41,780 bases of DNA from Rufibacter ruber. Its GTDB lineage: Bacteria > Bacteroidota > Bacteroidia > Cytophagales > Hymenobacteraceae. Each line of letters opens with the position of its first letter. Position 1 is the first letter of the stretch. Below, piece by piece: positions 100 through 41,753 of this stretch. The position numbers and the translations under genes are program-made. The stretch is from contig NZ_LRMM01000041.1 of NCBI RefSeq assembly GCF_001647275.1, positions 1 to 41,780 of the forward strand. The letters run 5' to 3'. Under the pieces are notes generated by a model that worked only from the letters and a program-made list of their open reading frames with translations, was not told the origin of the DNA and did no database searches.

Positions 100-122
100 C
101 TGAAAAACAGGCCTAAAACAGG
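100..122. repeat. Half copy of the dispersed palindrome (copy 1)
   Basis: Only the loop and 3' arm are present (CTGAAAAACAGGCCTAAAAC); no matching 5' arm precedes it. It abuts the terminator of the minus-strand amidohydrolase operon, so its T-rich complement would serve as the terminator tail. The first 99 bases hold no gene. They contain two weak hairpins (AAGGAC/GTCCTT near 38-61 and ACTTCGG/CCGAAGT near 60-95). Confidence 0.6.
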
Positions 123-154
123 AAGAGCCACCTGCTTGCAGGTGGCTCTTCCTT
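119..154 (-). terminator. Intrinsic terminator of the amidohydrolase operon
   Basis: A 15-bp perfect stem, GGAAGAGCCACCTGC at 121-135 and its complement at 138-152, lies about 20 bases beyond the stop codon at 175. On the minus strand the stem is followed by CTGTTTT, which belongs to the half palindrome next to it. Confidence 0.8.
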
Positions 155-174
155 AGATAAGGGGTTGCAGGAAA

Positions 175-1506
175 TTACTCCCCTTGGTTGTATTTACCGT
201 TAAACTTCTGATACAGGTACTGCTGCTTATCCGTGAGGTTCAATTGGCGGCCTTGAATAAAGGCGTGGCTCACTTTGTTGGTGCGCATGTCCAGCAGGTC
301 TCCCTCAGACACGACCAAGGTAGCCTCTTTCCCCACTTCTATGGACCCCACTTTGTCCTCAACCCCTAGAATCTTGGCGGCATTATAGCTCACTGAGGCC
401 AGCGCCTGTTCCTTAGGCAGCCCAAAAGCCACGGCGGTTCCGGCAATGAACGGAAGGTTACGGGTCCCGTGCAGGCTGGCGTCATAGTCCAGGCAGAAGA
501 GAATGCCGGCTTGGTGCAGAAGGCCCGGCATCTTGTACGGCAGGTAGACGTCATCTCCGGCACGGGCAGGCAAGGCATGCACACCAGAATAAATCACCGG
601 AATGTTATTCTCCTTCAGGAAGTCAGACACCACCAGCGCATCTGCCCCGCCCACTATCACCATGTTCTTGATGCCTGCCTTCTGGGCGAACCGTACCGCT
701 TCTACCATCTCCTTGCCGTAGTTCACATGAAGGAAGAGTTTTTTGCTGCCGTCAAACAAGCCGGTCAAAGAGGCCAGTTTCAGGTTCTCCTTCTCCCGCG
801 CCTGCTGCTTGTACACAGAGGCATCTGCCAGAAGCGTCTCTAACTCCTGCAACCCTTGCTGCCGGGCCTGCTTGCGTTGTGCCGCCGCGGGGCTTGTATC
901 GCCGCTCTGCAACATGGCCGGCCAGCGCAAATGCAGCCCTCCGTCTGCTTTCACCACGGCGTCTTCCCAGTTCCAGGCATCTAGCTGTACCACAGAAGAA
1001 GAACCAGAGATCAACCCTCCCACCGGGGTCACCTGCGCCAGGAGAACGCCGTTGTTGCGCAACGTAGGAACAATGTCTGAATCTGTGTTATACGCCACTA
1101 CTGACCGCACATTAGGGTTCAGCAGCCCTACCTCCTGCTGGTCTAGGGTAGCCCGCACTGACTCAATCTCTACCAGGCCAATCTGGCTGTTGGGCTGAAT
1201 CAGGCCTGGATAGATATGTTTACCGGCTGCGTTAATGGTTTCATAGGCGGTGCCTGCGGCTTTAAAACCAGACGCCGGGCCGGCGTAGGTGATTTTACCG
1301 TTTTCAAAAGCAACGGTAGCTTTCTCCACCACCTGCCCGTTGCCAACGTGCAGGGTGGCACCGGTTACCGCCACCGCCTTTGTTTGCTTAGCTGCTGGCA
1401 CCGGAACCTGCGCCCAGGCGGTTGCCCCTGTCAGCAGCGCAGCAAAGAGCAGCGCCGCCTTTCTCATTTTATATGTTGTCTCCACGGAGTTGTATATCAA
1501 GTTCAT
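175..1506 (-). CDS. Secreted amidohydrolase-like protein lacking the HxH metal motif
   Basis: Second gene of a two-gene operon, 12 bases after its partner. It has the amidohydrolase (imidazolonepropionase-like) layout: N-terminal beta-sandwich strands, the turn HIYPGLIQPNSQIG near residues 97-110, and the C-terminal NAAKILGVEDKVGSIEVGKEATLVV block that closes the composite domain. In active enzymes the turn reads PGxxDxHxH; here both histidines are missing, so hydrolytic activity is doubtful. The first ATG (1506) has a good Shine-Dalgarno sequence, AAGGAGG, that overlaps the stop codon of the upstream gene. A second ATG at 1467 gives a cleaner signal peptide (MRKAALLFAALLTGATAWAQ), and either start is possible. 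Probably periplasmic. Family membership is clear; substrate and activity are unknown. Confidence 0.85.
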   Translation of the reverse strand: MNLIYNSVETTYKMRKAALLFAALLTGATAWAQVPVPAAKQTKAVAVTGATLHVGNGQVVEKATVAFENGKITYAGPASGFKAAGTAYETINAAGKHIYPGLIQPNSQIGLVEIESVRATLDQQEVGLLNPNVRSVVAYNTDSDIVPTLRNNGVLLAQVTPVGGLISGSSSVVQLDAWNWEDAVVKADGGLHLRWPAMLQSGDTSPAAAQRKQARQQGLQELETLLADASVYKQQAREKENLKLASLTGLFDGSKKLFLHVNYGKEMVEAVRFAQKAGIKNMVIVGGADALVVSDFLKENNIPVIYSGVHALPARAGDDVYLPYKMPGLLHQAGILFCLDYDASLHGTRNLPFIAGTAVAFGLPKEQALASVSYNAAKILGVEDKVGSIEVGKEATLVVSEGDLLDMRTNKVSHAFIQGRQLNLTDKQQYLYQKFNGKYNQGE

Positions 1507-1518
1507 GTGGTTGCCTCC

Positions 1519-4569: not shown

Positions 4570-4661
4570 GGGTTTAGTAATGTTTGTAGGGTCTGGTGAT
4601 AGTTTGAAGCACGGAAAGTACGAAAGCAACCGCCTAAAAAAAAGACCCTACCCCACAATCT

Positions 4662-4700
4662 CTGTTCTTGCCTGTTTTCAGAAAAACAGGCCAAAAACAG
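4662..4700. repeat. Dispersed palindrome, copy 2
   Basis: CTGTTCTTGCCTGTTTT, loop, then AAAAACAGGCCAAAAACAG. The arms pair with one bulge. It sits between the permease terminator and the start of the amidohydrolase operon. Confidence 0.8.
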
Positions 4701-6470: not shown

Positions 6471-6510
6471 CTGTTTTTAACCTGTTATTATAAAAATAAG
6501 CCAAAAACAG
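6471..6510. repeat. Dispersed palindrome, copy 3 (degenerate)
   Basis: CTGTTTTTAACCTGTTATTA pairs imperfectly with TAAAAATAAGCCAAAAACAG. It lies between the divergent permease and sbcD genes, one of the few copies at 5' ends and visibly decayed. Confidence 0.6.
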
Positions 6511-7835: not shown

Positions 7836-7846
7836 CACCCTGGATT

Positions 7847-7887
7847 CCTGTTTTCGGGCTGTTTTTCTGAAAACAGGTCAAAAACGG
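7847..7887. repeat. Dispersed palindrome, copy 4
   Basis: CCTGTTTTCGGGCTGTTTTT, loop, then AAAACAGGTCAAAAACGG. The inner stem CTGTTTT/AAAACAG is intact and the middle is mismatched. It follows sbcD directly and is its only obvious terminator candidate. Confidence 0.8.
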
Positions 7888-8056: not shown

Positions 8057-8120
8057 TTCTCTTCTTTTCTGTTTTGGGGCTGTTTTTCTGAAAACAGCCC
8101 CAAAACAGAAAAGAAGAGAA
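8057..8120. repeat. Dispersed palindrome, copy 5 (30-bp perfect stem)
   Basis: The longest perfect copy: 8057-8086 pairs with 8091-8120 without a mismatch around the loop TCTG. The core stem is TTTTGGGGCTGTTTT; the outer TTCTCTTC/GAAGAGAA is specific to this locus. It lies 8 bases beyond the acetyltransferase stop codon. With copy 4 it fills the convergent gap 7836-8128, where no gene is visible. Confidence 0.92.
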
Positions 8121-9876: not shown

Positions 9877-9970
9877 AGGTAGGTTGTCATCAAAGTTCCA
9901 GCACTTGCTCCTTTAGGAACTGGAGCGGGTTGGGTCCTAATCTAAACGGTGACAGCTAAAGTAGCGTAAC

Positions 9971-10008
9971 GTTTTAGAGCTATTTTTTAAAAAACAGCCC
10001 CAAAACAG
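9971..10008. repeat. Dispersed palindrome, copy 6 (partial)
   Basis: GTTTTAGAGCTATTTTTTAA pairs imperfectly with AAAACAGCCCCAAAACAG. The 3' arm is canonical and the 5' arm decayed. It lies between divergent gabD and the catalase locus. Confidence 0.6.
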
Positions 10009-12053: not shown

Positions 12054-12097
12054 TTCTGTTTTGGAGCTGTTTTTCTAAAAACAGCTCCAAAACAGAA
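12054..12097. repeat. Dispersed palindrome, copy 7 (20-bp perfect stem)
   Basis: 12054-12073 pairs with 12078-12097 without mismatch around loop TCTA. The variable stem block is GGAGCTG/CAGCTCC. It marks the outer left border of the long inverted repeat, as copy 9 marks the right border. Confidence 0.9.
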
Positions 12098-15514: not shown

Positions 15515-15556
15515 CAGCAGCGCCTGCTTCATAAAGAAGCAGGCGCTGCTGTTTTT
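15515..15556 (+). terminator. Strong intrinsic terminator of the alcohol dehydrogenase
   Basis: A 16-bp perfect stem, CAGCAGCGCCTGCTTC at 15515-15530 with its complement at 15536-15551, a 5-base loop, then TTTTT. The T tract is also the start of the dispersed palindrome that follows. Confidence 0.93.
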
Positions 15557-15588
15557 GGCCTGTTTTTCAGAAACTAAGCCAAAAACAG
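15549..15588. repeat. Dispersed palindrome, copy 8
   Basis: CTGTTTTTGGCCTGTTTTT, loop CAG, then AAACTAAGCCAAAAACAG. The outer stem is intact and the inner one changed. Its first bases are shared with the terminator's 3' arm and T tract, so the two elements are fused. Confidence 0.85.
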
Positions 15589-16712: not shown

Positions 16713-16757
16713 TTCTGTTTTCGGGCTACTTTTCCCAAAACAGGTCAAAACCAGAAA
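16713..16757. repeat. Dispersed palindrome, copy 9
   Basis: TTCTGTTTTCGGGCTACTTT, loop, then AAAACAGGTCAAAACCAGAAA. Imperfect. It follows the M28 peptidase stop by 9 bases on the minus strand and forms the outer right border of the long inverted repeat. Confidence 0.75.
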
Positions 16758-16766: not shown

Positions 16767-17618
16767 TCAAAAGTTCAACATGGCGGCGTACACGCCTTTC
16801 ACCACTTCCGCCATTCTATTAAAGTCAAGGGTATCAATGGTGTCGGTTTTCTGGTGGTAGTGGGGGTTTCTAAGGAAAGAGGTGTCATTGATCATGACCG
16901 CCTGGTACCCATGCGCCCAGTAGTTGCGGTGGTCAGACAGCGAAACGCCGGGCAAGTCGGGCGGGGCGGCAATAGACTGCACGTCAACGCGTGAATGTTC
17001 TTTCATGAACTGCTGTACCCGCTGCACTGTCTTCTCCTGCCCCTGCCGGCCCACCACCACAATAAAATTACCGGTGGTGGGGTACATTTTTTTCATAGAT
17101 GCATGCTGGAACTCCTGCGAGTTGGGTTTGTCTGTAAAGTACCCTATCATTTCCAGGCACAGCATCAGCCGTACGTCAACCTCGTCCCGCTTCAGGGAAG
17201 CGGCGTGTACGGCACTGCCCATTATCTCGGTGGCAAAATACGGCGGCTCCTCAAAGTTGAAGGCCACAAAGTCAATACGGTGTTTGAGCTCCGGTTGCTC
17301 TTCATGCAACACCCGCGCCAGTTCCAGCAAACCAGCCACCGCGCTGGCATTGTCATCGGCCCCCGGGGTGTCACCGCACACGTCATAATGCGCCCCCACA
17401 ATCACCCGCTCCCCTTTTTCCGGCCCCGCCGAAAGCATGATATTCTCAAAGCCCTGGTGCAGCCCCTGCTTGCTCACCCGCCCACTCAGCTTGCAAAACT
17501 CCTGTTCCACGTAGGCGGCGGCTTTCCTGAGGGAGGCCGGGTGCCCTATGCTGCGGGGCGGGTGCAGGGTGGTGAGGTAGTGCACATCTTGGTACAGGCG
17601 GTCGCGTTGAACAGGCAT
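16767..17618 (-). CDS. M28-family zinc metallopeptidase
   Basis: A co-catalytic zinc aminopeptidase-like protein of 283 residues. Putative metal ligands are His77 in VGAHYDV, the bridging Asp88 in GADDNAS, Glu in FNFEEPPYF (123-124), the acidic residue in CLEMIGY, and His in the late NPHYHQKTDT segment; LSDHRNYWAHGYQAVMINDT also fits the family. No signal peptide is seen with this start, so it may be cytoplasmic. ATG 17618 opens the conserved RDRLYQDVHYLTTLHPPRS block; ATG 17675 is an alternative. A longer in-frame extension to 17990 would overlap the divergent gene and is rejected. Peptide substrates are unknown. Confidence 0.88.
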   Translation of the reverse strand: MPVQRDRLYQDVHYLTTLHPPRSIGHPASLRKAAAYVEQEFCKLSGRVSKQGLHQGFENIMLSAGPEKGERVIVGAHYDVCGDTPGADDNASAVAGLLELARVLHEEQPELKHRIDFVAFNFEEPPYFATEIMGSAVHAASLKRDEVDVRLMLCLEMIGYFTDKPNSQEFQHASMKKMYPTTGNFIVVVGRQGQEKTVQRVQQFMKEHSRVDVQSIAAPPDLPGVSLSDHRNYWAHGYQAVMINDTSFLRNPHYHQKTDTIDTLDFNRMAEVVKGVYAAMLNF

Positions 17619-17798
17619 GGGGGAAGCGAGGTTGGTTACCTTCCTTTTACTGTTTCGCCCTAGCGGGGTTACCATGCCCAGCCACGAATAAATACTCAAT
17701 ATTCTCCGGTTTGCAGTTGGGGAAACAGATGGGAGTACCAACCGGCAATCAACTTCCCGTTTCCCTCCCCGTACCTGAGGGGGAAGACCGTTCCTCCT

Positions 17799-18639: not shown

Positions 18640-18699
18640 GCATGGGCCGCTGTTTTAGGCCTGTTTTCTGAAAAACAGGCCTAAAACGGCGGCCCATGC
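18640..18699. repeat. Dispersed palindrome, copy 10 (28-bp stem)
   Basis: 18640-18667 pairs with 18672-18699 around loop CTGA, with one T:G wobble. The core block is AGGCCTG/CAGGCCT; the outer GCATGGGCCGC/GCGGCCCATGC is unique to this locus. It follows the barrel gene. Confidence 0.92.
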
Positions 18700-21048: not shown

Positions 21049-21090
21049 CAGAAAGGCCTGCTCTTATAAGGAGCAGGCCTTTCTGTTTTT
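21049..21090 (+). terminator. Intrinsic terminator after the HigA remnant
   Basis: A 15-bp perfect stem, CAGAAAGGCCTGCTC at 21049-21063 with its complement at 21071-21085, followed by TTTTT. The T tract again begins a dispersed palindrome. Confidence 0.92.
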
Positions 21091-21122
21091 GGGCTGTTTT
21101 TAGAAAAGTAGGCCAAAAACGG
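21083..21122. repeat. Dispersed palindrome, copy 11
   Basis: CTGTTTTTGGGCTGTTTTTA pairs with an altered GTAGGCCAAAAACGG arm. It is fused to the preceding terminator and lies 54 bases before the next gene. Confidence 0.8.
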
Positions 21123-22127: not shown

Positions 22128-25100
22128 GTGAAGATAACCTCTGTCCGTTTCTGTAACCTCAACTCGCTGCAGGGCGAGCACTTTATACCGTTCAACCAGC
22201 CGCCGTTGAGCGAGAGCGGGTTGTTTGCCATTACGGGGCCTACGGGCGCGGGCAAAACCACCATTCTGGACGCCATCACGGTGGCGCTGTACGGACAGGT
22301 GCCGCGCCATGGCCGCGATGTGGCCGAGATTATGACGCGCCACACCGGCGAGTGCTGGTCTGAGGTGGAGTTTGAGGCCGAGGGGAAAATGTACCGCGCC
22401 CGCTGGAGCCTTCGGCGCAGCCGCAGCAAAGCCGACGGTAAGCTACAGAGCCCCGTCATGGAACTCATTGACGCCGCCACGCAGGAAGTGCTGGAGAGCC
22501 GCCTCTCTGAGACCCGCCAGCGCATCATTGACCTCTGCGGACTGGATTTCCAGCAGTTTTTGCGGTCTGTGATGCTCAGCCAAGGCGATTTCACCCGTTT
22601 CCTGAAGGCCAGCGAAAGCGAGCGCAGCGAACTCCTGGAGAAACTCACCGACACCCGCATCTACTCCCAGATTTCCATGGCCGCCTATGAAAAGGCCAAG
22701 GCCGAAAAACAGAAACTGCAGGACATTGAGCAGCGGCTGCAACTGGACCAGCTGCTGTCTGAGGAAGACCGCGCCGCCCTGGAGGCAGAAACCCATCGGC
22801 TGAAAGCCGAGGCCCGCCTGGCCCAACAGCAGGTACAGCAGCACCTGCAACAGCAGACCTGGCTGGAGAACCTGCAGAAGCTCACCCAGAAAGAGACGCA
22901 GCTGAGCAGCCAACTCGCGCAGGCACAAACCCAGCAACAGGCCTGGCAACCCAACCGCGAGAAACTTCAACGGCACGAGCAGGCCCAGCCGTTCCAGAGC
23001 GAGCTGGCGAGGCTGCAGGAGGTACAACGCCAAGGCGAAAGCGTGACTCAAGCCATAGTTGCAATGCAGCAACAGGTGCCCGTGCAGGAACAGAAGGTAG
23101 CCGCGAAGACGCAGGCCACCCAGACTGCCCGTACCGCCCACACGCAGGCGCAGCAAACCCTCATAGAGGCCGAACCGCGCCTGGACCAGGTGCTGCAGCA
23201 AGACTCGCATATTAGCGCACAGCAGGCCCAATACACCAAAGACCAGCAAGCCGTAACGCAACTGCAGCAGCAGGTGCAGCAGCTTTCCCAACAACAAACG
23301 CAACAGCAGAATAGCCTCCAACAACTGGTGCAGGAAGGCAAGCAACTGAACGACTGGCTCAAAGAACACGGGCTGGACGAGGAGCTGTCGCAGACCTTGC
23401 ACGAAGGGAAATCAGAATTCAGAAATCTGGCCGAGGTGCAGAAACAGCAGGAGAAGCTCCAGAAAGAGCAGGCTGTTTTACGGCAGACTTCAGAAAACGA
23501 GGCTAAAAACGAAGCCCTCATAAAACAGCAACTGGCAGCCATCGAAGGGCAACTGCAAGTCCAACAACAGCAGCTTTCTACTTTGCAGGAACAAGCCACC
23601 GCTGCCCTGCAAGGCCAGGAGCACGAGGCACTGGAGCAGCTCTGCCAGCGCCTGCCCAGCGTGTGCAGCCAACTGGAGAAGCAGCTGGAGCTGAGCAAAA
23701 CCTATCTACAGCAGGAAGCCCGTCGGCAAGAATTGCAAGCGCAACTGGCCACCACCACGCAGAACCTGCACCAGCACCGCACCCGCCTTGCCCAAACCAA
23801 ATCCGAGCGGGAGCAGGCCCAGGACAAGCTCAAAGACCTGCAGCATATTCTGGATTTGCAGCGGCAGATTCAGAAGTACGAAGACGCGCGCGCCCAGCTG
23901 CAGCCCGAGCAGCCGTGTCCGCTGTGCGGCTCCACGCACCACCCGCTGGTAGAGGCGCACCAGCCGCAGACCTTAAGCGAGGCCGAGCAGAACCTGCAGC
24001 AGCAGCAAACCAAAGTACAGCGCCTGGACGGGCAGGAGCGGGAACTGGCCGCCGCCGTGCATCGCCTGGAACTCGCCGAGCAGCACACGCATGAGCAAAT
24101 AGACCAAATCACCACGCATACCCAACAGCTGCAAACGCAGTTCGCTGCGCTAAATGCTGCCCTGGAGCTGGCCCATGAGATTGCCGTCTCAGACTCCATT
24201 GACCAGTACTGGAACGCCCGCCAAACGGAACTGCAGCAGGCCACCGCCACCTTAGAAAGTTTGCGAGGCCTCCGTACGCAACTGGACCAGGCCCGCGCCA
24301 CTGAGCAGAAAATACTCAACGAGCAACAGCGTTTTCGGCATGAAATGGAAAAAACAGCCCAAAAACGGACGCAGGCCGACACGCAACTAACTCAACTGCA
24401 AGCAGAACTGGAAGATGTAGCCGAACAGGCCAAGGTGATTTCCGAGACCCTGCAAGGCTTCTTCAGCACCTACGGCCTCACCTACACAGGCGCCAACGGC
24501 GCAGAATTGCTGGCGCAGCTTGAGACGCGCAGGCAGACGTATGAGCAGAAAAAGGCGCTGCTGCCGGAGCTACGCGTCAACTACTCTGAGGCCAAAGCCG
24601 CCGCTGATAATGGCAAAGCCACCTTAGAAGAAAAGCAGACCGAACTCACCCAACGGCAGGCGCACCTGCAAACCGCGCAGGAACAACTGCAGGAACTCCG
24701 CACCCAGCGTTATGCGTTGTTACCAGAAGGTGTGCAGCCGCAAGCGGAAAAACAGCGTCTGCAGCAGGCCTTGCAACAGGCGGCACAAGCCCTGCAACAA
24801 TCAGAAGCTGCCCTGCAGCGCGAGCAGGAGCAACTGAACCTGCTCACCCACCAACTGGCCCAGAAGCAGAAAGAACAGCAGGCGAGCCAGCAAGCGCAAC
24901 AGGAACTGGAGGCGGCGCTGCTGCTGAAAATTCAGCTGTTGGGCTATACTTCTCTAGCGGAATTGCAGGCCTTGCTGTTGCCAGAATATGAAGCGCGGCA
25001 GCTACGGCAGGAACAGGAACGCCTGCAGAAAGCGCTGCATGAGCTGGAGCACAGCCTACAGCAGTGCCGCACGGAGTACCAAACGGAGAAAGAGCGCCAC

Positions 25101-25796
25101 CTCACCGAGTTGACATTGGATGAACTACAGCCGCACATTCAAACGCTGGAAGAAGAGAAAAACCAGCACCTCACCCAGATGGCCCGTCTGGAAATGCAGC
25201 TCCAGCAAGACTCTGATTTACGCGAGAAGCACCGCCAACTCACCCAGCAGCTGGACCTGCAGAAAGGCGAAGCAGAACGCTGGGCCCGGCTGGCCAACCT
25301 CATCGGCTCTGCCGACGGCAAGAAGTTCAGCAAGTACGCCCAAAGCCTCACGCTGGCGCGGCTGGTAGAACTGGGCAACCGCCACCTGCACCGCCTCAAC
25401 GACCGCTACCGTATTCTCAAAAGCACAGAGAACGAGCTGGACCTCCAGATTCTGGACACCTACCAAGGCGATGCCGTGCGGTCAGTCAACTCGTTGTCTG
25501 GCGGCGAGAGTTTCTTGGTGAGCCTTGCTTTAGCTTTAGGTTTGTCAGATTTGGCCAGCCACAAGGCCCAGATTCACTCGCTGTTCATTGACGAAGGCTT
25601 CGGTACGCTGGACGCTGATACCTTGGACATTGCCATGGACGCCCTGGAAAGCCTGCAGGCCACCGGCAAGATGATTGGCATTATCTCGCACGTAGAAGCC
25701 CTGAAAGAGCGCATCAGCACGCAGATTGTAGTGGAGAAACTGGCGGGCGGTAGAAGCAGTATCAGGGTGGAGAGTGCCGTGGGAATGGCCGTGTGA
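22128..25796 (+). CDS. sbcC: Nuclease SbcCD subunit C
   Basis: The ATPase subunit of SbcCD, an SMC/Rad50-like protein that tethers DNA and drives the SbcD nuclease against hairpins and blocked ends. 1222 residues from a GTG start that gives the standard opening MKITSVRFCNLNSLQG. Walker A GPTGAGKTT is at 37-45; the two coiled-coil arms are unusually glutamine-rich; the zinc hook CPLC has Cys597 and Cys600; the signature LSGGE is at 1123-1127; Walker B LFIDE is at 1152-1156 followed by GFGTLD. All catalytic parts are intact. It is separated from sbcD (6588-7835), with which it normally forms an operon. It begins 30 bases after the AT-rich secreted gene and is followed at once by a 34-bp hairpin. 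Confidence 0.96.
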   Translation: MKITSVRFCNLNSLQGEHFIPFNQPPLSESGLFAITGPTGAGKTTILDAITVALYGQVPRHGRDVAEIMTRHTGECWSEVEFEAEGKMYRARWSLRRSRSKADGKLQSPVMELIDAATQEVLESRLSETRQRIIDLCGLDFQQFLRSVMLSQGDFTRFLKASESERSELLEKLTDTRIYSQISMAAYEKAKAEKQKLQDIEQRLQLDQLLSEEDRAALEAETHRLKAEARLAQQQVQQHLQQQTWLENLQKLTQKETQLSSQLAQAQTQQQAWQPNREKLQRHEQAQPFQSELARLQEVQRQGESVTQAIVAMQQQVPVQEQKVAAKTQATQTARTAHTQAQQTLIEAEPRLDQVLQQDSHISAQQAQYTKDQQAVTQLQQQVQQLSQQQTQQQNSLQQLVQEGKQLNDWLKEHGLDEELSQTLHEGKSEFRNLAEVQKQQEKLQKEQAVLRQTSENEAKNEALIKQQLAAIEGQLQVQQQQLSTLQEQATAALQGQEHEALEQLCQRLPSVCSQLEKQLELSKTYLQQEARRQELQAQLATTTQNLHQHRTRLAQTKSEREQAQDKLKDLQHILDLQRQIQKYEDARAQLQPEQPCPLCGSTHHPLVEAHQPQTLSEAEQNLQQQQTKVQRLDGQERELAAAVHRLELAEQHTHEQIDQITTHTQQLQTQFAALNAALELAHEIAVSDSIDQYWNARQTELQQATATLESLRGLRTQLDQARATEQKILNEQQRFRHEMEKTAQKRTQADTQLTQLQAELEDVAEQAKVISETLQGFFSTYGLTYTGANGAELLAQLETRRQTYEQKKALLPELRVNYSEAKAAADNGKATLEEKQTELTQRQAHLQTAQEQLQELRTQRYALLPEGVQPQAEKQRLQQALQQAAQALQQSEAALQREQEQLNLLTHQLAQKQKEQQASQQAQQELEAALLLKIQLLGYTSLAELQALLLPEYEARQLRQEQERLQKALHELEHSLQQCRTEYQTEKERHLTELTLDELQPHIQTLEEEKNQHLTQMARLEMQLQQDSDLREKHRQLTQQLDLQKGEAERWARLANLIGSADGKKFSKYAQSLTLARLVELGNRHLHRLNDRYRILKSTENELDLQILDTYQGDAVRSVNSLSGGESFLVSLALALGLSDLASHKAQIHSLFIDEGFGTLDADTLDIAMDALESLQATGKMIGIISHVEALKERISTQIVVEKLAGGRSSIRVESAVGMAV

Positions 25797-25801: not shown

Positions 25802-25883
25802 GACCTCGTAGGGTCCGGAGGACCTGCGAGCGTCTTAAAGCGTTGGCATAGACGCTCGCAGGTCCTCCGGACGCTACGAGGTC
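25802..25883 (+). terminator. 34-bp hairpin directly after sbcC
   Basis: 25802-25835 pairs with 25850-25883 with one mismatch around a 14-base loop; TCTTTT follows. It begins 6 bases after the sbcC stop codon, so it may act as a terminator. The 3' arm (GCAGGTCCTCCGGACGCTAC, then GAGGTCTTT) resembles 12114-12145 and, in reverse, 16665-16690 at the ends of the long inverted repeat, so it is a dispersed module rather than a simple terminator. Confidence 0.8.
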
Positions 25884-25911: not shown

Positions 25912-25951
25912 CTGTTTTCGGCTTACTTTTCAGAAAACAGGCCAAAAACGG
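25912..25951. repeat. Dispersed palindrome, copy 12
   Basis: CTGTTTTCGGCTTACTTTTC, AG, then AAAACAGGCCAAAAACGG. The outer part pairs and the middle is partly mismatched. It follows the sbcC hairpin. Confidence 0.75.
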
Positions 25952-26608: not shown

Positions 26609-26647
26609 CTGTTTTCGGCCTGTTTTCCAGAAAACAGGCGAAAAACG
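26609..26647. repeat. Dispersed palindrome, copy 13
   Basis: CTGTTTTCGGCCTGTTTTCC, AG, then AAAACAGGCGAAAAACG. One base is missing in the 3' arm. It touches the stop codon of the ammonium transporter (26648-26650). Confidence 0.85.
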
Positions 26648-27958
26648 CTACATCTTCTCGTCGTGCTGGGACTGGTCAAGGCCCAATTGCTCCTCTTCTA
26701 CTGACACGCGGAGCGGTGAAATCAGGTTGGTCACTTTCAACAGAATCCAGGATCCGCCGAAGGCGAAAATAGACACGCCCACCAGGGCCCCCAGCTGCAC
26801 CAGAAACAATTTGGTTTCGCCAAAGATCAAGCCCTGGTCCGGTATGGCCGGGTTCACGCCTTTACTGGCGAACACACCTGTGAGCAGCATGCCCACCATT
26901 CCGCCCACGCCGTGGCACGGGAACACATCCAGCGTGTCATCAATGCTGGTGCGGGACCTGAAATCTACCAGCAGGTTACTCACCACAGAGGCAATCACGC
27001 CAATGGCGATGGAATGCGGCAAGGTTACAAATCCGGCGGCGGGCGTAATGGCCACCAGACCCACCACGGCACCAATGCAGGTGCCCATGGCTGAGGGCTT
27101 ACGGCCTTTCACGGCGTCAAAGAAAATCCAGGCCAGGGCGGCTGCCGCCGAGGCCGTCATGGTGGTGGCCAGGGCCGTGGCCGCCAACGGATTCGCGCCC
27201 ATGGCTGAGCCCGCGTTAAAGCCAAACCACCCAAACCAAAGCAAGCCCGTACCCAGCAGCACAAAAGTAATGTAGGCCGGGTTGTGGCTCGCCTCGCTGC
27301 GGCGTTTCAGGCAGATGGCAGACGCCAGTGCCGCCCACCCCGCTGACATGTGCACCACCGTTCCGCCCGCAAAATCTAATACCCCAAGCTGGAACAGAAC
27401 ACCCTGCGGGTGCCAGGTGGCGTGGGCTAGCGGGGCGTAAATGAAAAGGAAGAACAGCAGAATGAAAATGGTGTAAGACGTAAACCTGATACGCTCTGCG
27501 AAGGCACCCGTAATCAAGGCCGGCGTAATGATGGCAAACTTCAGCTGGAACATGGCAAACAAGGCCAACGGAATGGTGGGTGCCAGTTCCCAGGCGGGGC
27601 CGTCCAGCACGTTCCGCATCATGAAGAAAGTGGCGGGATTCCCGAAAACACCCCCAATAGAATCGCCAAAGGCCAGGCTAAACCCAAACACCACCCAGAT
27701 CACCGACAGCATAGCCATACAGATGAAACTCTGCAGCATGGTTGAGATCACGTTTTTCCTGCTCACCATGCCCGCGTAAAAAAAGGCCAGCCCGGGCGTC
27801 ATGATCAGCACCAGGGCCGCGGCGGTGAGCATCCAGGCGGTATCTGCCGGGTTGAATTCTCCCTGCGCCACCCCTTTGGGCACAGACGGGAATACAAAGG
27901 TGAGTACAACGGTGATCACCAACAGAAAGAAGGGAATCTTAGAAAGCTTAGTGGTCAT
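26648..27958 (-). CDS. amt: Ammonium transporter
   Basis: An Amt/MEP/Rh channel of 436 residues for ammonium uptake in the inner membrane. It has an N-terminal signal-like helix, then DTAWMLTAAALVLIMTPGLAFFYAGMV, the family-defining start of helix 1. Further conserved blocks are LDFAGGTVVHMSAGWAAL, with the first pore His, and DVFPCHGVGGMVGMLLTGVFA, with the second. About 11 membrane segments. The cytoplasmic tail is short and charged (VEEEQLGLDQSQHDEKM). No glnK/PII gene is adjacent, unlike the usual amtB-glnK pair. The 880-base upstream gap may hold its regulation. Confidence 0.95.
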   Translation of the reverse strand: MTTKLSKIPFFLLVITVVLTFVFPSVPKGVAQGEFNPADTAWMLTAAALVLIMTPGLAFFYAGMVSRKNVISTMLQSFICMAMLSVIWVVFGFSLAFGDSIGGVFGNPATFFMMRNVLDGPAWELAPTIPLALFAMFQLKFAIITPALITGAFAERIRFTSYTIFILLFFLFIYAPLAHATWHPQGVLFQLGVLDFAGGTVVHMSAGWAALASAICLKRRSEASHNPAYITFVLLGTGLLWFGWFGFNAGSAMGANPLAATALATTMTASAAAALAWIFFDAVKGRKPSAMGTCIGAVVGLVAITPAAGFVTLPHSIAIGVIASVVSNLLVDFRSRTSIDDTLDVFPCHGVGGMVGMLLTGVFASKGVNPAIPDQGLIFGETKLFLVQLGALVGVSIFAFGGSWILLKVTNLISPLRVSVEEEQLGLDQSQHDEKM

Positions 27959-28714: not shown

Positions 28715-28758
28715 TTCCTGTTTTCGGGCTGTTTTTCAGAAAACAGCGAAAACAGGAA
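28715..28758. repeat. Dispersed palindrome, copy 14
   Basis: TTCCTGTTTTCGGGCTGTTT, T, loop TCAG, then AAAACAGCGAAAACAGGAA. The 3' arm lacks two bases in the middle. The outer TTCCTG/CAGGAA pairs perfectly. Confidence 0.85.
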
Positions 28759-29637: not shown

Positions 29638-29683
29638 TTTCTGTTTTCGGCCTGTTTTTCTGAAAACAGGCCGAAAACAGAAA
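29638..29683. repeat. Dispersed palindrome, copy 15 (21-bp perfect stem)
   Basis: 29638-29658 pairs with 29663-29683 without mismatch around TCTG. The variable block is CGGCCTG/CAGGCCG, a paired alternative to GGGGCTG/CAGCCCC of copy 5. It lies between two convergent genes and could terminate both. Confidence 0.93.
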
Positions 29684-33241: not shown

Positions 33242-33287
33242 TTTCTGTTTTCGGCCTGTTTTCCTGAAAATAAGCCAAAAACAGAAA
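33242..33287. repeat. Dispersed palindrome, copy 16
   Basis: TTTCTGTTTTCGGCCTGTTT, T, loop, then AAAATAAGCCAAAAACAGAAA. The outer stem pairs and the inner arm is changed. It lies between divergent genes, directly upstream of a promoter box. The rest of 33288-33498 shows no further feature. Confidence 0.8.
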
Positions 33288-33498: not shown

Positions 33499-36400
33499 AT
33501 GGCAGCTAATGTTTACAAAGCCAAAACCCTGACCGCCTTTCAAGTCTGGATGCTGGTGTGGGCGTTCTCCATCTTCTGGAACTCTGCGGCTGTTGCCCAA
33601 ACGACACCATCTTTCCAAGCCGGCGATTACCGCACCACAACCGCAGGAAACATCAGCCAGACATCTGGCACGGCCCAACTGGAGCAGCTCTCTGTAGACG
33701 GAACATGGCAGCCTGCCGCCTACCCCCTCCCGGTGACCTCCACCCTGTATGCCCCACATGCGTTGCAGATTGCAGGGCCCCTTGAGGTAGCCAACCTGGT
33801 GGTAACCGCCGCAGCCCCCGTGACCGTGCTTGCCAATGCCCACCTCCGCACTACCGGCAGATTAACAGTTTCCCCTTCCGCCCGTCTGGTGCTGCAGGGC
33901 GAAGTAGACAACCGCGGAACGCTCCAACTCCAGGCAAACAGCACGCTCCTGATCCAGTCCCACAATTACCAAGCCACCTCTTCCCTTTGGGCGGGCATTG
34001 AAGAAATAGACGCCACTTCTGAGGTTAGAATTGAAAACGCCAACGCCAGCGCCCTCCTGCTCTCTGGCAGCCACCTCACCACGCAACCCCACGGTTTTTG
34101 GTTCGGGAAACTGACTATAGCACCCGCCTCTGCTGTAAACTGGCAGTTAACAAACACCAGCGGCTCTATCACGGCCCAGACGGCAACCGTAGTATTACCA
34201 ACCGGCTCCACCCTTACCCTGGCGGCCGGGATCTCCCTTTCCCTGCAGTTTGGGCAAGGCCTCTCTCTCACCGGCGGCACATATTTTGTCCAAAACCAGG
34301 CTAGTGGAACAGCCAATCTTTCCCTGGCCGGAGACCTCGCTCTGAGCAACGCCAGCCTTACCCTGAACCAAACGGCCAGCTCCGGCGCCACCACGTTGGT
34401 AGACCTCAAAGGCCATCTCACCCAGGACGCCGGCTCCACTATCAACAACAGCAGCACGGTTACCACCAGCTCCAGCGCAATCAGCTTTACCGGCACCAGC
34501 TGGCAGGAAATTGCCGCCGCGGGGTCTGTTAACCATGTTACACTGGGGGTGAAGCCTGGGGCGCAGGTGCGGCTCAAGCAGCATTTAAAACTCAACCCTT
34601 CTAACTCTGTTTATGCGGGCACGTTGACCGTAGAGAATGGCGGCACCTTAGATTTTGGCACAGACGCGAACGGAAACGGTTATTCAGTTCAGGGCCAGGG
34701 TTATTTCAGGTTAGAGCAGGGCGGGACACTGTTGATCACCAGTGCCCAGGGAATCAATGCCACTGGTTTGGCCGGCAACGTGCAGGTTACTGACAGCCGT
34801 CGCACCTTTAACCAGCTGGCCACGTTTGTCTATAGCGGCACCGTGCCCCAGCAAACGGGGAATGCCTTTACCACCACGGCCAATGGCAAAATCCTCATCA
34901 TAGACAACCCCACGTCTGTCACTCTTACCCAAAGCACCGGTATTTCCAGCAACACCACCCTTTCCGCCGGTGGCGGAAAATTGGAGATCAGACAAGGGGT
35001 GTTGATTGCCACCCCCACGGCAGACATTACCAGCTCCGGTAAATTGGTTATGACGGGCGGCACGTACCGTATTGCCATGACTGGCACCACCGTTCCGCTA
35101 TTATCAGGGGCTTACGAGCTAACGGGTGGCAGCATTGAGCTGGCGGGGAACGGCGATCAGACACTTAGGGGGAAAACTTACCACCAGCTCATCATCAGTG
35201 GCAGCAACACTGCCGGCGTCAATGCCAAAACCATTTCCACCACCACTACCGTCAACCAGAAGCTAACTATTCTGCCCCATGCCCTCTTTGATATTGGAAA
35301 CAAAACTTTGAAAGGTGACGGCGGTTTAACCATGACAGGCGGTTTGCTGCGCTTAGGCAAAAGCAGCGGCACCTTGCCAGAACTTGCGGGCAGAAATGAG
35401 CCTTATCAGCTGACCGGCGGCACCATTGAGTTTTACGGCACCACCAACGGCCAGAGCCAATCGCTCAGGGGAACGTATGGCAGCTCCCAAAAGATCACGT
35501 ACCATCATGTAACCTTGACCGCCACTGAGGCCAATACGCTCAATGAAAATGGCAACCAGCTGCTCAGCGGCAACCTAGATGTCACAGGTACGCTCACGGT
35601 CAAGGCCCCGGCGGTTTTACAGATTGCCAGCAACCGTGCCATTGGAGGGTCAGGCAGTTTTGTGTTGGAGACCGGCGCAACCTTGCTTTATGGCTCGCCT
35701 CAGGGCATTAAACAAACGGGTACCACCACTTCAGACGGCAATATTAGGGTAAGTGGCCCCAGAAGTTATTCTACCCAGGCTAGCTACGGATTTGTGGGGA
35801 ACTCAGAAATGGTCTCAGGAGACGGCCTTCCGGCAACTGTAGCCAATTTACTTGTGGCTAAAACCGGGTACGGCGTTACGTTGACCAATTCAGTGGCGGT
35901 GAGCGGGGTATTTACCATGAAGAGCAGCCTCTTTAAGACTGGGGCCAATGAGCTTGCCATTAACAGCACGGCCCCTGCCGCAATAGAGTTGGCAGATCCT
36001 GCCTTTTACATTCTGGGCAACCTGAGACGGGCCATGGGCAGCAGCGGGACGTACAGCTTTCCGGTGGGCACGCTTAACGGCAAACGCCAGCTGGATATTC
36101 AGACCAATGCCTTGGGCGGAAACGGGTTTCAAAGCCTGCTGGTAAGTTTTCAACCCCTCACCCATCACCAGGACGCTGATCTGCAGGTGACAGAAGCCGG
36201 CGCCACCTACACGCGCATAGAGCCAGAAGGGGTTTGGGTAGTAGAACCCAATACCCAGCCCACCAGCGGAAGTTACACCGCCTTTGCGTACCTGAACGGG
36301 TTTAGCGGCCTCATAGACAATGCCTTTGCTCTGCTGTTACGCCCGCTTACGTCTACCAGTGGCAAAGATTGGAATACCGGCGGCGGCACCTTAGACGCCC

Positions 36401-37041
36401 CCAACAAAGAAGGCCGAACCTTGGCCAGCGGCTATGCCAAGCGCAACTTTATAAATCAGTTTGGGCAGCTGGCCATAGGCAACCTGGAATCTACCCTGCC
36501 TGTTTCCTGGCTGCACGTGAAAGCACAGCGGCAGCAACAGCACGTGCTCCTCACCTGGGCCACCGCCACTGAGACCAACAATGACCGCTTTGAAATAGAA
36601 TACTCCCTTGACGGAAGGCAGTTTACCCAAGTGGGGGCTTTGCCTGGGAGCGGCCACTCCACCACAATTCAACGGTACCAGTTCCTGCACCCCAACAAAG
36701 ACCATCACGTGGGTTATTACCGCATCAAGCAAGTTGACTATGACGGGCAGTTTGAGTTCAGTAAGGTGGTCTCAGCAGAGGCTGGTGCGGCACCCAGCGT
36801 TTCCGGGCTCCAGCTTTACCCCAACCCCAGTCAGGAAGTCCTGTACATCTCAGGTGTAGACCTGGCTCCAGACGCAGAGATTGAGATCATAGACCTCAGC
36901 GGAAGAACCGTACAGCGCGTGATTCCCGTGTTGGGAGGAACCGTGGCAACCATTCAGGTAAAGCACCTACCGGCCGGCACGTATCTCCTTCAGCTACGGC
37001 AGGAGAAGCAGGTTCAACGGCAGCGGTTTGTGAAGCAGTAA
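33499..37041 (+). CDS. Large T9SS-secreted beta-helix-like surface protein
   Basis: 1180 residues. The signal peptide (VWMLVWAFSIFWNSAAVAQ) directs it to the periplasm. The C-terminal ~80 residues (GLQLYPNPSQEVLYISGVD, IEIIDLSGRTVQ, LPAGTYLLQLR) form a type A sorting domain of the type IX secretion system, so it is exported across the outer membrane and likely attached or released. Residues ~60-900 are Ser/Thr/Gly-rich with recurring TGG turns (SLTGGTYFV, VMTGGTYRI, ELTGGSIEL, TMTGGLLRL, QLTGGTIEF), which suggests a beta-helix or stacked-strand adhesin. Residues ~995-1085 (LPVSWLHVKAQRQQQHVLLTWATATETNNDRFEIEYSLDG) are a common pre-sorting module. No catalytic motif is seen. Confidence 0.9.
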   Translation: MAANVYKAKTLTAFQVWMLVWAFSIFWNSAAVAQTTPSFQAGDYRTTTAGNISQTSGTAQLEQLSVDGTWQPAAYPLPVTSTLYAPHALQIAGPLEVANLVVTAAAPVTVLANAHLRTTGRLTVSPSARLVLQGEVDNRGTLQLQANSTLLIQSHNYQATSSLWAGIEEIDATSEVRIENANASALLLSGSHLTTQPHGFWFGKLTIAPASAVNWQLTNTSGSITAQTATVVLPTGSTLTLAAGISLSLQFGQGLSLTGGTYFVQNQASGTANLSLAGDLALSNASLTLNQTASSGATTLVDLKGHLTQDAGSTINNSSTVTTSSSAISFTGTSWQEIAAAGSVNHVTLGVKPGAQVRLKQHLKLNPSNSVYAGTLTVENGGTLDFGTDANGNGYSVQGQGYFRLEQGGTLLITSAQGINATGLAGNVQVTDSRRTFNQLATFVYSGTVPQQTGNAFTTTANGKILIIDNPTSVTLTQSTGISSNTTLSAGGGKLEIRQGVLIATPTADITSSGKLVMTGGTYRIAMTGTTVPLLSGAYELTGGSIELAGNGDQTLRGKTYHQLIISGSNTAGVNAKTISTTTTVNQKLTILPHALFDIGNKTLKGDGGLTMTGGLLRLGKSSGTLPELAGRNEPYQLTGGTIEFYGTTNGQSQSLRGTYGSSQKITYHHVTLTATEANTLNENGNQLLSGNLDVTGTLTVKAPAVLQIASNRAIGGSGSFVLETGATLLYGSPQGIKQTGTTTSDGNIRVSGPRSYSTQASYGFVGNSEMVSGDGLPATVANLLVAKTGYGVTLTNSVAVSGVFTMKSSLFKTGANELAINSTAPAAIELADPAFYILGNLRRAMGSSGTYSFPVGTLNGKRQLDIQTNALGGNGFQSLLVSFQPLTHHQDADLQVTEAGATYTRIEPEGVWVVEPNTQPTSGSYTAFAYLNGFSGLIDNAFALLLRPLTSTSGKDWNTGGGTLDAPNKEGRTLASGYAKRNFINQFGQLAIGNLESTLPVSWLHVKAQRQQQHVLLTWATATETNNDRFEIEYSLDGRQFTQVGALPGSGHSTTIQRYQFLHPNKDHHVGYYRIKQVDYDGQFEFSKVVSAEAGAAPSVSGLQLYPNPSQEVLYISGVDLAPDAEIEIIDLSGRTVQRVIPVLGGTVATIQVKHLPAGTYLLQLRQEKQVQRQRFVKQ

Positions 37042-37044
37042 CCC

Positions 37045-37081
37045 GTTTATGGGCTGTTTTTCTGAAAACAGGCCCAAAATG
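37045..37081. repeat. Dispersed palindrome, copy 17
   Basis: GTTTATGGGCTGTTTT, loop TCTG, then AAAACAGGCCCAAAATG, with one extra base in the 3' arm. It starts 4 bases after the stop codon of the T9SS protein and precedes the terminator, the reverse of the usual order. Confidence 0.85.
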
Positions 37082-37085
37082 AACC

Positions 37086-37356: not shown

Positions 37357-37462
37357 TCAGGGCAAATTGCTTTTGTATCCTTTCGCATTCACCTTGGAAG
37401 AAGGTTGGGCCTACCCGTTAGAACTGAATATATCACTACCCAATCTGCCTCCACTGCCTGCC

Positions 37463-37496
37463 TTTTGGGGCTGTTTTTCAGAAAACAGCCCCAAAA
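37463..37496. repeat. Dispersed palindrome, copy 18 (15-bp perfect stem)
   Basis: TTTTGGGGCTGTTTT pairs exactly with its complement around TCAG. The outer arms do not match here. The next stem-loop (37499-37535) abuts it. Confidence 0.88.
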
Positions 37497-37498
37497 CG

Positions 37499-37535
37499 CA
37501 AAAAGGGAGCACTGTTAACCAGCGCTCCCTTTTAT
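37499..37535 (-). terminator. Stem-loop terminator downstream of purF
   Basis: AAAAGGGAGC (37501-37510) pairs with GCTCCCTTTT (37524-37533). On the minus strand TTTTT follows, then palindrome copy 18. It lies 200 bases beyond the purF stop codon, the nearest minus-strand gene. Confidence 0.7.
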
Positions 37536-37636: not shown

Positions 37637-37683
37637 AACTTGTGCTTTAGACTCGGTTGGGAAACTGCTTCAGCTCAAGTTCT

Positions 37684-37718
37684 TCTCCTTTAAAACCTTA
37701 TTTTATACAAGCTCTAGT
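37684..37718 (-). repeat. TAGAGCTTGTTTAAATTTTG repeat, copy C (diverged)
   Basis: On the minus strand CTAGAGCTTGTATAAAATAA then GGTTTTAAAGGAG aligns with copy A at about 27 of 35 positions. It lies just beyond the 3' end of purF. Confidence 0.45.
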
Positions 37719-37737
37719 CTCTTACAAAAGTTGCACC

Positions 37738-39630: not shown

Positions 39631-39709
39631 TCTACAGATGGTTAAGAAGGGGGAAAACACGGGTTCAGTGGTTTCCGCGGCCATTCTGCCCTCAAGGCAG
39701 AACGGAGAT

Positions 39710-39742
39710 GCAAAGTAAGCCTAAAAACACGTACCCTTCCAA
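39710..39742 (-). promoter_or_regulatory. Candidate purF promoter
   Basis: On the minus strand TTG (39742-39740) and TACTTTGC (39717-39710) are separated by 22 bases, close to the Bacteroidota consensus. The predicted leader is about 75 bases. Confidence 0.4.
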
Positions 39743-39833
39743 GGGAAAAACTAATTTATGTGCGGTTTCATTCCCTGTAGGCGAAAGAAAGTCAGCCGCG
39801 GCCGGCAAACACCTGCCCCACCGTTTCTGGCTT

Positions 39834-39873
39834 CTGTTTTTGGCCTGCTTTCCTGAAAGTAACCCAAAAACAG
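39834..39873. repeat. Dispersed palindrome, copy 19 (degenerate)
   Basis: TTCTGTTTTTGGCCTGCTTT, CCTG, then AAAGTAACCCAAAAACAG. Several mismatches. It lies between divergent purF and a DMT exporter gene. Confidence 0.7.
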
Positions 39874-39906
39874 CGCGGTTTCTGGAAAGTGCGCGCGCCT
39901 GTTGCC

Positions 39907-39914
39907 TACCTTTG
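39907..39914 (+). promoter_or_regulatory. TACCTTTG promoter box, predicted leaderless
   Basis: TACCTTTG fits TAnnTTTG exactly and ends 5 bases before the ATG at 39920. A start 4-7 bases downstream would fall on or next to the ATG, so the mRNA would have almost no leader. No clear TTG element lies at the usual distance. Confidence 0.5.
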
Positions 39915-39919
39915 CCGCC

Positions 39920-40807: not shown

Positions 40808-40892
40808 GCGGGAATGGGTACAGATTTTGTTGTTTCGTTTGCACCAAGTTGCCCAAACGGGTGTTCTTGGCTAAACCTGAACTAAGGAGATT

Positions 40893-41156
40893 ATGCTGGA
40901 AGAAACGGCACCGTTTGATGCAGATGCGCTGCATCACCTTTTTCTGCAAGTAGAGGCGAAAGACGCCACTTGCATGCTGAACGTGGCGGGGCACCCGCTG
41001 CGCATCAGGGAAGTGATTTTCCAGATGGTGGAGAACGGGTGCCGCGTCTGCAAGGTTACCGCTGACCAATACAACACCTTTATCTATGACAAGGAGGTAA
41101 CAGAGATATATGACTACCTCACCACCATCATCAAAGTAAAGACACTGGTGGGGTGA
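40893..41156 (+). CDS. Small conserved-looking hypothetical protein
   Basis: 87 residues with no signal peptide and no recognised family. AAGGAGA 4-9 bases before the ATG supports the start. It has three cysteines (DATCMLNVAG; ENGCRVCKVT) and a mixed alpha/beta pattern, with an acidic, Tyr-rich helix near the end (DKEVTEIYDYLTTIIKVKTL). The stop codon lies inside the first arm of palindrome copy 20. Confidence 0.7.
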   Translation: MLEETAPFDADALHHLFLQVEAKDATCMLNVAGHPLRIREVIFQMVENGCRVCKVTADQYNTFIYDKEVTEIYDYLTTIIKVKTLVG

Positions 41157-41207
41157 TGTCTGTTTTGGGGCTGTTTTTCAGAAAACAGCCCTAAAACAGA
41201 CATCACC
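41152..41207. repeat. Dispersed palindrome, copy 20 (26-bp stem)
   Basis: 41152-41177 pairs with 41182-41207 around TCAG, with one G:T wobble. The outer GGTGATGT/ACATCACC contains the stop codon of the preceding gene (41154-41156), so the palindrome arm includes coding sequence. Confidence 0.93.
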
Positions 41208-41326
41208 GCGGCCTGCTGACCAGCAGTTTTACCTTTCTCGCCTCCAGTACCATTACAATCTTTCTTTAAACCAGTTTTCCCGCTGTTTACCTTCGTAAAC
41301 TACAACTTCAACAACTGGTAAAGACC

Positions 41327-41629
41327 ATGAAAGATCTGAAGATAACGTTGATCATGCTGTGTTCTGTTTTCGTGCTGGGCGGGAGCGTGGCAGACGTACA
41401 GGCACAGGACACCAAGAAAAAAGAGAAGAAAGGCTGGAGCCGTAAAGCCAAAGGCGCACTGATTGGAGGGGCCGGCGGGGCCGCCGCCGGCGCAGCGGTT
41501 GGCGGCGGCAAAGGTGCCGTGGTAGGCGCTGCCGTGGGTACCGTGACCGGGGGCGCCATAGGCCGAAAGAAAGACAAACAGAAGGACCCTAAGCGCTACA
41601 AGCAGTACAGCAAAAAAGACAATGACTAA
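41327..41629 (+). CDS. Small secreted glycine-zipper (YMGG-like) protein
   Basis: 100 residues: signal peptide MKDLKITLIMLCSVFVLGGS to AQ, Lys-rich KKKEKKGWSRKAKGALIG, a glycine zipper (GGAGGAAAGAAVGGGKGAVV, GAAVGTVTGGAIG), and a very basic tail. A shorter paralogue of 19987-20514. A TACCTTCG box (41288-41295) about 30 bases upstream may be its promoter. Probably envelope-associated; function unknown. Confidence 0.85.
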   Translation: MKDLKITLIMLCSVFVLGGSVADVQAQDTKKKEKKGWSRKAKGALIGGAGGAAAGAAVGGGKGAVVGAAVGTVTGGAIGRKKDKQKDPKRYKQYSKKDND

Positions 41630-41647
41630 TGATTTGCTGCATGAAAT

Positions 41648-41693
41648 AGAGAAGCCCGTTCCCTTAAAAGGAACGGGCTTCTCTATTTTTTCT
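41648..41693 (+). terminator. Intrinsic terminator of the glycine-zipper gene
   Basis: AGAGAAGCCCGTTCC and GGAACGGGCTTCTCT pair around a 7-base loop, followed by ATTTTTTCT. A dispersed palindrome follows. Confidence 0.93.
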
Positions 41694-41696
41694 ATT

Positions 41697-41753
41697 AAGG
41701 TTTTCTGTTTTGGGGCTGTTTTTTTGAAATCAAGCCCCAAACCAAGAAACCTT
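41697..41753. repeat. Dispersed palindrome, copy 21
   Basis: TTTTGGGGCTG..AAGCCCCAAA core with a changed inner stem. The outer AAGGTTT/AAACCTT pair is locus-specific. It follows the last terminator in the window. Confidence 0.8.

Follow-up and report, generated by a model that had tools for sequence, protein, structure and literature searches.

The 41,780-nucleotide contig NZ_LRMM01000041.1 of Rufibacter ruber (contig C103 of a 5.5-Mb draft genome, analysed whole and called the window below) is strewn with copies of a 40-base palindrome in which four heptamers are separated by spacers of four bases (heptamer-N4-heptamer-N4-heptamer-N4-heptamer), with CTGTTTT in the left half and AAAACAG in the right half. 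The element is abundant, with mirrored arms, a rigid central spacing and conserved T/A tracts, and it is confined to the genus Rufibacter among the genomes searched. Its position is conserved across the genus while its consensus is species-specific. It carries no RNA-strand signature and is not associated with RAYT genes, which encode the transposases linked to repetitive extragenic palindromes (REPs). A preliminary description of the window had recognised the palindrome family; it had not anticipated the genus-wide conserved positions, the species-specific consensus or the confinement to one genus. We tentatively favour the view that the element is a duplex-DNA site, symmetric between the strands, which lies at the boundaries of transcription units and to which a putative genus-specific protein probably binds. 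An ancient REP-like burst ranks close behind as an explanation.

Abundance and restriction to Rufibacter

The half-sites of the element read about CTGTTTT, CTGTTTT, AAAACAG and AAAACAG, and their starts are 11 bp apart. When central spacers of 0 to 11 nt between the inner heptamers were scanned separately, 191 of 211 matches had a spacer of 4 nt; the spacing within each arm is fixed by the model rather than scanned. A scan of the window for a combined heptamer and pairing score of at least 25 returned 22 places, 20 of which scored at least 27.5 and were taken as clear. The two weak matches (23473 and 24329) both lie inside an SbcC-like gene. The same scan found nothing in the reversed window or in three first-order Markov sequences. 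The family of at least 21 copies in 41.8 kb that had been described is therefore real, and the cores quoted for it at 8057, 12054, 18640, 29638 and 37463 are present, the last being placed at 37459. The consensus had not been recognised as that of a described family. Rfam gave no match in the window at gathering scores, and the partial coverage available of the literature on REP/RAYT systems, on palindromes of Bacteroidetes, Pontibacter and Hymenobacter, and on Rufibacter (including PMC12306157) contains no description of the element.

In the R. ruber genome, 283 copies have all four heptamers perfect (control, 0), and the core geometry GTTT-N9-TTT-N4-AAA-N9-AAAC occurs 1,561 times (control, also 0). 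A 420-kb sample, which is not random (C1, C2, 20 kb of C24 and the window), holds 193 copies, one per 2.2 kb, with none in the reversed control. The forecast of thousands of copies per genome was thus about right. A lack of enrichment outside the window had been named beforehand as the result that would refute the family; the enrichment observed is overwhelming.

All 16 Rufibacter genomes searched contain the core geometry, at 186 to 1,561 occurrences per genome. Elsewhere in the family, 134 genomes have 0 to 3 occurrences each (control pattern, 0 to 2 throughout that search). In the wider phylum, 295 other genomes, two of which were also in the family search, have 0 to 4 each (control pattern, 0 to 5). 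Neither the core geometry nor the R. ruber matrix matched in 77 non-Rufibacter loci (978 kb). With weight matrices trained on each species, every one of the 16 genomes yielded 21 to 52 elements per 100 kb, for a total of 815 in about 1,976 kb. The matrices scan the same data on which they were trained and have symmetry built in; their control, the reversed sequence at the same threshold, gave no match. A covariance-model search found at least 107 in each of the 16 genomes among at most 150 scored candidates per genome, figures that are not copy numbers. A model search over 27 loci also returned matches, which serve to show occurrence and not number. The strict R. ruber pattern gave 1 to 57 copies in 11 of 15 relatives within the genus, none in the other four and none in 43 genomes outside it. 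Near-absence of the element from some Rufibacter species, as this pattern alone would imply, was rejected: the consensus of those species is different or looser, which makes the low counts misleading.

Some secondary contigs are poor in elements. Three were found in the 80 kb read of G012:C2 (155 kb) and one in the 60 kb read of G008:C2 (235 kb), both contigs being plasmid-like judging from size only. The 7.5-kb G008:C3 has three weak elements. Those on G012:C2 do not have the CTCATTT spelling of the G012 chromosome.

Placement between genes and conservation of position

With genes predicted by our own simple hexamer caller, the element was found in 36 of the 41 convergent junctions of the R. 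ruber sample, in 82 of its 202 codirectional junctions and in 18 of its 41 divergent ones. None of the 61 codirectional gaps shorter than 60 nt holds one, and only 4 of the 193 copies are within genes. Across samples of the 16 species, the element occupies 169 of 213 junctions where genes converge, 335 of 900 where they run in the same direction and 92 of 205 where they diverge; 45 of 802 located copies fall within predicted genes. Neighbouring R. ruber copies are less than 200 nt apart in 17 of 193 spacings (median, 1,521 nt). The proposed likeness to REPs and bacterial interspersed mosaic elements (BIMEs) holds for the distribution, with its convergent junctions and copies near stops, but not for BIME-type arrays. 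Asymmetric copies show no orientation bias (77:71).

Within codirectional gaps, 82 of 429 copies lie no more than 10 nt past the upstream stop, compared with 27.8 for uniform placement. Together with the frequent occupation of convergent junctions, this is the placement that would be expected of an RNA 3'-end element, whether a terminator helper, an mRNA stabiliser or a stop-proximal REP that stalls ribosomes. We nevertheless consider such a role unlikely, as sites in divergent gaps are conserved too and as the strand test described in the next section does not point to RNA.

The spelling of the element differs from species to species. The consensus left arm is CTGTTTTnGGcCTGTTTT in R. ruber, CCGTTTTcGGgCTCATTT in G012, gCGTTTAGGGGCTgTTTT in G004 and tCGTTTTTGGCCTGTTTT in G006, and the loop is also species-specific (CCAG, for example, in 48 of 108 G012 copies). 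Its position is not free to the same degree. Past the gene at 33499-37041 of the window, a scored element lies 0 to 5 nt from the stop in 12 of 12 species in which the gene pair is intact; in the other four species it is visible by eye, though degenerate in G011 and G015. A separate intrinsic terminator occurs in this gap in most species. The copy in the divergent gap at 39834 is kept 26 to 48 nt from the start codon in eight other species and was not found in G008. In 326 orthologous pairs, drawn from junctions that hold a single element in each species, the median difference in offset from the nearer gene is 3 nt, and the offsets agree within 5 nt in 58.6% of pairs, compared with 6.7% for random placement. 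One shared junction has the perfect G012 consensus in G012, a near-perfect version of its own in G004 and looser versions in others.

Presence is conserved as well. Where G004, the reference for 47 junctions, has an element, the other species have one too in 76 of 91 comparisons at codirectional, 37 of 41 at convergent and 21 of 29 at divergent junctions. The corresponding numbers with R. ruber as reference are 36 of 47, 26 of 28 and 13 of 21. Codirectional gaps free of the element in the reference hold it in none of the other species (0 of 91 comparisons for G004 and 0 of 62 for R. ruber, leaving out overlapping genes, with which the comparisons number 154 and 73). Most of these gaps leave no room for an element, and a fair count is therefore limited to those that reach 60 nt in both species: 0 of 23 and 0 of 24, respectively (0 of 3 and 0 of 4 for gaps that reach 80 nt). 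Orthologues in these comparisons are one-way best hits, and neither species pairs nor cells are independent.

Rates of change differ along the element. Between species, tract positions differ by 0.03-0.13 in seven of eight pairs, and by 0.28 in one pair with three elements; fourfold codon sites of the same pairs differ by 0.36-0.48. The other positions of the element differ by 0.20-0.43, slower than fourfold sites in eight of eight pairs; in seven of the eight they outpace alignable intergenic DNA (0.18-0.24). These rates rest on 3 to 15 elements per pair, and pairs share species. The contrast between slow tracts and a fast remainder indicates that a skeleton of fixed-spacing tracts is kept while the remainder is nearly free.

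Arm pairing, strand symmetry and the origin of copies

Copies were scored on heptamers alone, without regard to pairing, before agreement between the spacers was asked. Among 198 R. ruber copies, spacer positions 7, 8, 9 and 10 are paired in 92, 141, 133 and 106, against shuffled means of 60, 140, 126 and 93. The covariation that had been called for is thus found at position 7 (z 5.0), whereas positions 8, 9 and 10 remain near background; at position 10, C-C (39) and G-G (42) are nearly as frequent as C-G (55) and G-C (51). Position 7 also exceeds shuffles in G009, G006 and G012 (z 5.1, 3.3 and 3.0). Identical N4 halves, the other part of the covariation that stood, occur in 46 of the 198 copies compared with 15.6 after shuffling (maximum of 300 shuffles, 26). 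Over the 16 species, spacers are identical in both arms in 170 of 697 copies versus 90 shuffled. This excess comes mainly from the better copies, and there is none in the worst quarter of either species tested.

Deviations in the heptamers are mostly one-sided. In R. ruber, 466 are one-sided and 60 are both-sided and matching, the latter compared with 48.3 expected for independent halves; the numbers for G012 are 195, 24 and 15.9. In orthologous pairs (29 ungapped of 67), 14 paired-to-paired double changes were counted against 61 paired-to-unpaired ones. Doubles expected by a rough estimate are about 7, and there may be a weak excess of compensatory double changes. Because identical spacers exceed chance, it appears that copies are sometimes made or mended as perfect palindromes, which then decay one side at a time.

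An excess of identical halves is also what a purely mutational process would leave, namely template switching between the arms of quasi-palindromes at A/T-tract-rich DNA, without a dedicated function. According to the portions available of two reports, template switching homogenises the arms of inverted repeats and creates and maintains hairpins (PMC8604942, PMC8794818). As a complete account, such a process is improbable, leaving the rigid central spacing, the species-wide shifts in consensus and the restriction to one genus unexplained.

The ratio of G.U to A.C on the sense strand separates the possible roles. An RNA hairpin would tolerate sense-strand G.U over A.C. For 429 codirectional copies the ratio of G.U to A.C is 461:454, and the 233 copies no more than 60 nt from a stop lean slightly toward G.U (249:221, p 0.21). 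The positive control, a set of 83 non-convergent intrinsic terminators that our own hairpin-plus-T-run rule found in the same sequences, gave 42:3 (p 9e-10); 82 convergent terminators gave 23:20, which fits two-way use. Terminator-like hairpins are present in 44 of 328 codirectional gaps that hold the element and in 51 of 282 that do not (p 0.12). For convergent gaps the corresponding counts are 83 of 162 with and 13 of 34 without it (p 0.19), and for divergent gaps 2 of 92 with and 11 of 108 without it (p 0.02). When a codirectional gap contains both, the element lies past the terminator in 34 of 44. A role as RNA hairpin or terminator is disfavoured by the missing G.U excess, which the terminators do show, and by the lack of a significant association with terminators in codirectional or convergent gaps. 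Equal G.U and A.C, no orientation bias and no significant tie to terminators in codirectional or convergent gaps argue for a role as duplex DNA. It had been claimed that pairing, not sequence, is kept in this family. Spacers of the best copies do agree above chance; however, the one-sided heptamer changes and the equality of G.U and A.C indicate that pairing is not what evolution mainly keeps.

Mobilisation by RAYT transposases had been suggested as a possibility. R. ruber does have three RAYT genes above the NCBIfam cut-off, in addition to one IS200-like gene, and two of the three have an element copy on each side. However, only 4 of 28 Y1_Tnp loci, these two included, are flanked by the element on both sides within 300 nt, compared with 12% of 135 ordinary genes of similar size. 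(The 28 loci come from 45 matches in the genus, 3 IS200-like ones having been left out and 14 not fetched.) The three R. ruber genes (L017, L018 and L019) sit between other repeated palindromes, as do 8 of 27 relative loci under a strict finder, and G006 has no Y1_Tnp match, yet 41 elements per 100 kb. RAYT was therefore rejected as the mobiliser, and it is very improbable that the element is a RAYT-mobilised REP family. Several Rufibacter RAYT-like genes (L017-L019 and relatives among L102-L126) adjoin short palindromes of their own, for example of the CTTCCGGATTT-AATCCGGAAG and GTTCGGGATT types, so that several classes occur in one genus. Composite paired palindromes of the GGCGCGGAAGTTACTTCC type in G012 (L045, 987-1059; L089, from 19150 onward) are apparently RAYT-type pairs.

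A burst without RAYT is a much stronger candidate. An ancient REP-like or MITE-like (miniature inverted-repeat transposable element) burst in the Rufibacter ancestor, driven by a putative DNA-hairpin mobiliser, may have been followed by vertical inheritance, with renewal or conversion in place in tight species (species were classed as tight or loose only once the data had been seen) and with a function acquired later or not at all. We hold this to be possible, close to the duplex-DNA site in rank. It would account for presence throughout the genus with only chance-level matches in the 134 other family genomes, for the excess of perfect palindromes, for the species-specific loop, and for the shared junction at which G012 matches its consensus perfectly and G004 almost perfectly matches its own. 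The retention of offsets across species, the constraint on tract positions, the lack of association with RAYT and the poverty of the two large secondary contigs, whose three elements on G012:C2 are off the species consensus, count against it. Identical copies bear on both sides. In the R. ruber sample, identical 40-mers are rare (4 of 198, the commonest seen twice in 420 kb), which does not favour a burst.

We place the duplex-DNA site slightly ahead, as a tentative choice. The site would be read as duplex DNA rather than RNA, between genes, chiefly at convergent junctions and just past stops, chromosome-wide. A putative genus-specific DNA-binding protein, which could be nucleoid-organising, insulating or supercoiling-related, would bind it as a symmetric assembly; drift in binding specificity would drive the species-specific consensus; and template switching during replication might at times rewrite one arm from the other, producing the excess of perfect palindromes. 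More doubtful is an extension to a genus-specific chromosome-marking system, in which most convergent junctions and about half of the other roomy ones would carry symmetric sites, one or a few thousand in all. A putative lineage-specific architectural or insulating protein would recognise them, and as its recognition drifted from species to species the whole set would be re-spelled in place without a change of position.

Several observations weigh against a bound duplex-DNA site. The exact G012 consensus 40-mer occurs 7 times in 108 copies (240 kb, about 5% of that genome), and identical 40-mers of any spelling account for 15 of the 108. The seven copies extrapolate to perhaps 140 per genome, and Stenotrophomonas REPs have 37 to 427 perfect copies per genome in the part available of one report (PMC2817692). 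This extrapolation falls within the REP range and shifts the balance slightly toward a burst, although the G012 copies fit either copying or convergence on the consensus. Copies are also closer to each other than column-shuffled ones, strongly in three and weakly in two of five species: nearest neighbours in R. ruber differ by 4.11 mismatches versus 5.28 shuffled, and the effect is clear in G012 and G004 and weak in G005 and G006. Such closeness, also expected from a burst, is compatible with either copying or unequal decay. The whole element changes faster than alignable intergenic DNA in four of six pairs (G003-G014, 0.243 vs 0.172). Where a gap is empty in G004, others hold the element in 8 of 9 comparisons at convergent and 8 of 24 at divergent junctions, so its positions are not perfectly fixed. 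The frequent presence in divergent gaps makes 'boundary' a loose term, which refers to gene junctions rather than mapped transcription units. Finally, duplex binding accounts neither for the surplus of identical N4 halves nor for the covariation at position 7, for both of which the extra step of template switching is needed.

As a bound DNA site, the element would mark boundaries genome-wide in a single bacterial genus, its spelling being rewritten in place across the chromosome of each species, and the coevolution of an architectural protein with a thousand sites would become directly measurable. If it stems from an old repeat burst, it represents fixed-position renewal of a REP-like family without RAYT. 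On either reading, agreement between the arms of a palindrome is not in itself proof that selection acts on an RNA hairpin, and the strand test of G.U against A.C with a terminator control is a simple discriminator between RNA and DNA roles.

Copies in the window and comparison with known systems

By our gene calls, the 20 clear copies in the window, all given without strand, comprise 9 in convergent gaps, 5 in codirectional gaps or at the end of the window and 6 in divergent gaps. Those in convergent gaps are at 7848..7887 (a stop codon 12 nt before), 8069..8108 (perfect 18-bp arms, with a stem 12 bp longer outward), 15549..15588, 16715..16754 (12 nt from the stop of the minus-strand gene 16767-17699), 25912..25951, 26609..26648 (abutting the stop of an ammonium transporter gene), 29641..29680 (perfect arms), 37043..37082 (1 nt past the stop of the 33499-37041 gene) and 37460..37499. 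The last shares its gap with the copy at 37043 and adjoins an intrinsic-terminator hairpin at 37501..37533 (no strand), which consists of an A-run, a stem and a T-run, is distinct from the element and has a similar counterpart in this gap in most relatives. A codirectional gap holds the copy at 4661..4700, with a degenerate left arm. Copies at 12056..12095 (perfect arms) and 18650..18689 (stem 10 bp longer) are each 3' of a plus-strand gene, that at 41160..41199 is 3 nt past the stop of 40893-41156, and that at 41705..41745 has a degenerate right arm. Divergent gaps had been credited with four copies, at 6471, 9971, 33242 and 39834; we placed these at 6471..6510 (degenerate), 9969..10008 (degenerate left arm), 33245..33284 and 39834..39873 (start codon 28 nt away), and those at 21083..21122 and 28718..28755, the latter 2 nt shorter than other copies, are also divergent.

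A few copies have long unique outer stems of 8 to 12 additional bp (8057-8120, 18640-18699 and 41152-41207). Such stems, with at least 6 extra pairs together with at least 15 of 18 arm pairs in 7 of 192 copies, suggested insertion into terminator loops. Pairing outward past the first few flanking bases is otherwise near chance, and this was therefore rejected as a general origin. The SbcC-like gene that contains the two weak matches is an SbcC/RAD50-like gene (Pfam) at 22128-25796. SbcCD cleaves DNA hairpins, and the gene may therefore matter in a palindrome-rich genome. Directly 3' of it, at 25802-25883, lies a 34-bp inverted repeat (97% complementary, 14-nt loop) with GTAGGGTCCGGAGGACC-like arms; judging from its sequence, it resembles a paired RAYT-type REP and does not look related to the CTGTTTT family.

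Among known systems, REP/RAYT families resemble the element in being short (20-40 bp), high-copy intergenic palindromes near stops and convergent junctions, with a sequence that varies between species. REPs carry an asymmetric GTAG or CGTC tag at one end, as far as the available part of one article describes them (PMC3733652). In contrast, no one-sided tag of this type was seen in the element: its arms, tallied separately, are mirror images, and its flanks are near uniform past three bases. It further differs from REP/RAYT families in occurring mostly as single copies, in not being associated with RAYT and in its fixed positions throughout the genus. That article also mentions gyrase-targeted REPs in E. 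coli (PMC3733652), with which the element may share a DNA-level role between transcription units, although its sequence is unrelated and it is not arranged in arrays. Bidirectional intrinsic terminators are likewise inverted repeats past stop codons. However, the element has the opposite polarity, with T-tracts in the left arm, and no G.U excess, and in places real terminators are found next to it. Cyanobacterial HIP1 and DNA uptake sequences are numerous short, clade-typical DNA-level motifs that also occur within genes. The element is likewise a many-copy DNA-level motif typical of one clade, but it is a 40-bp composite that is mostly kept out of predicted genes.

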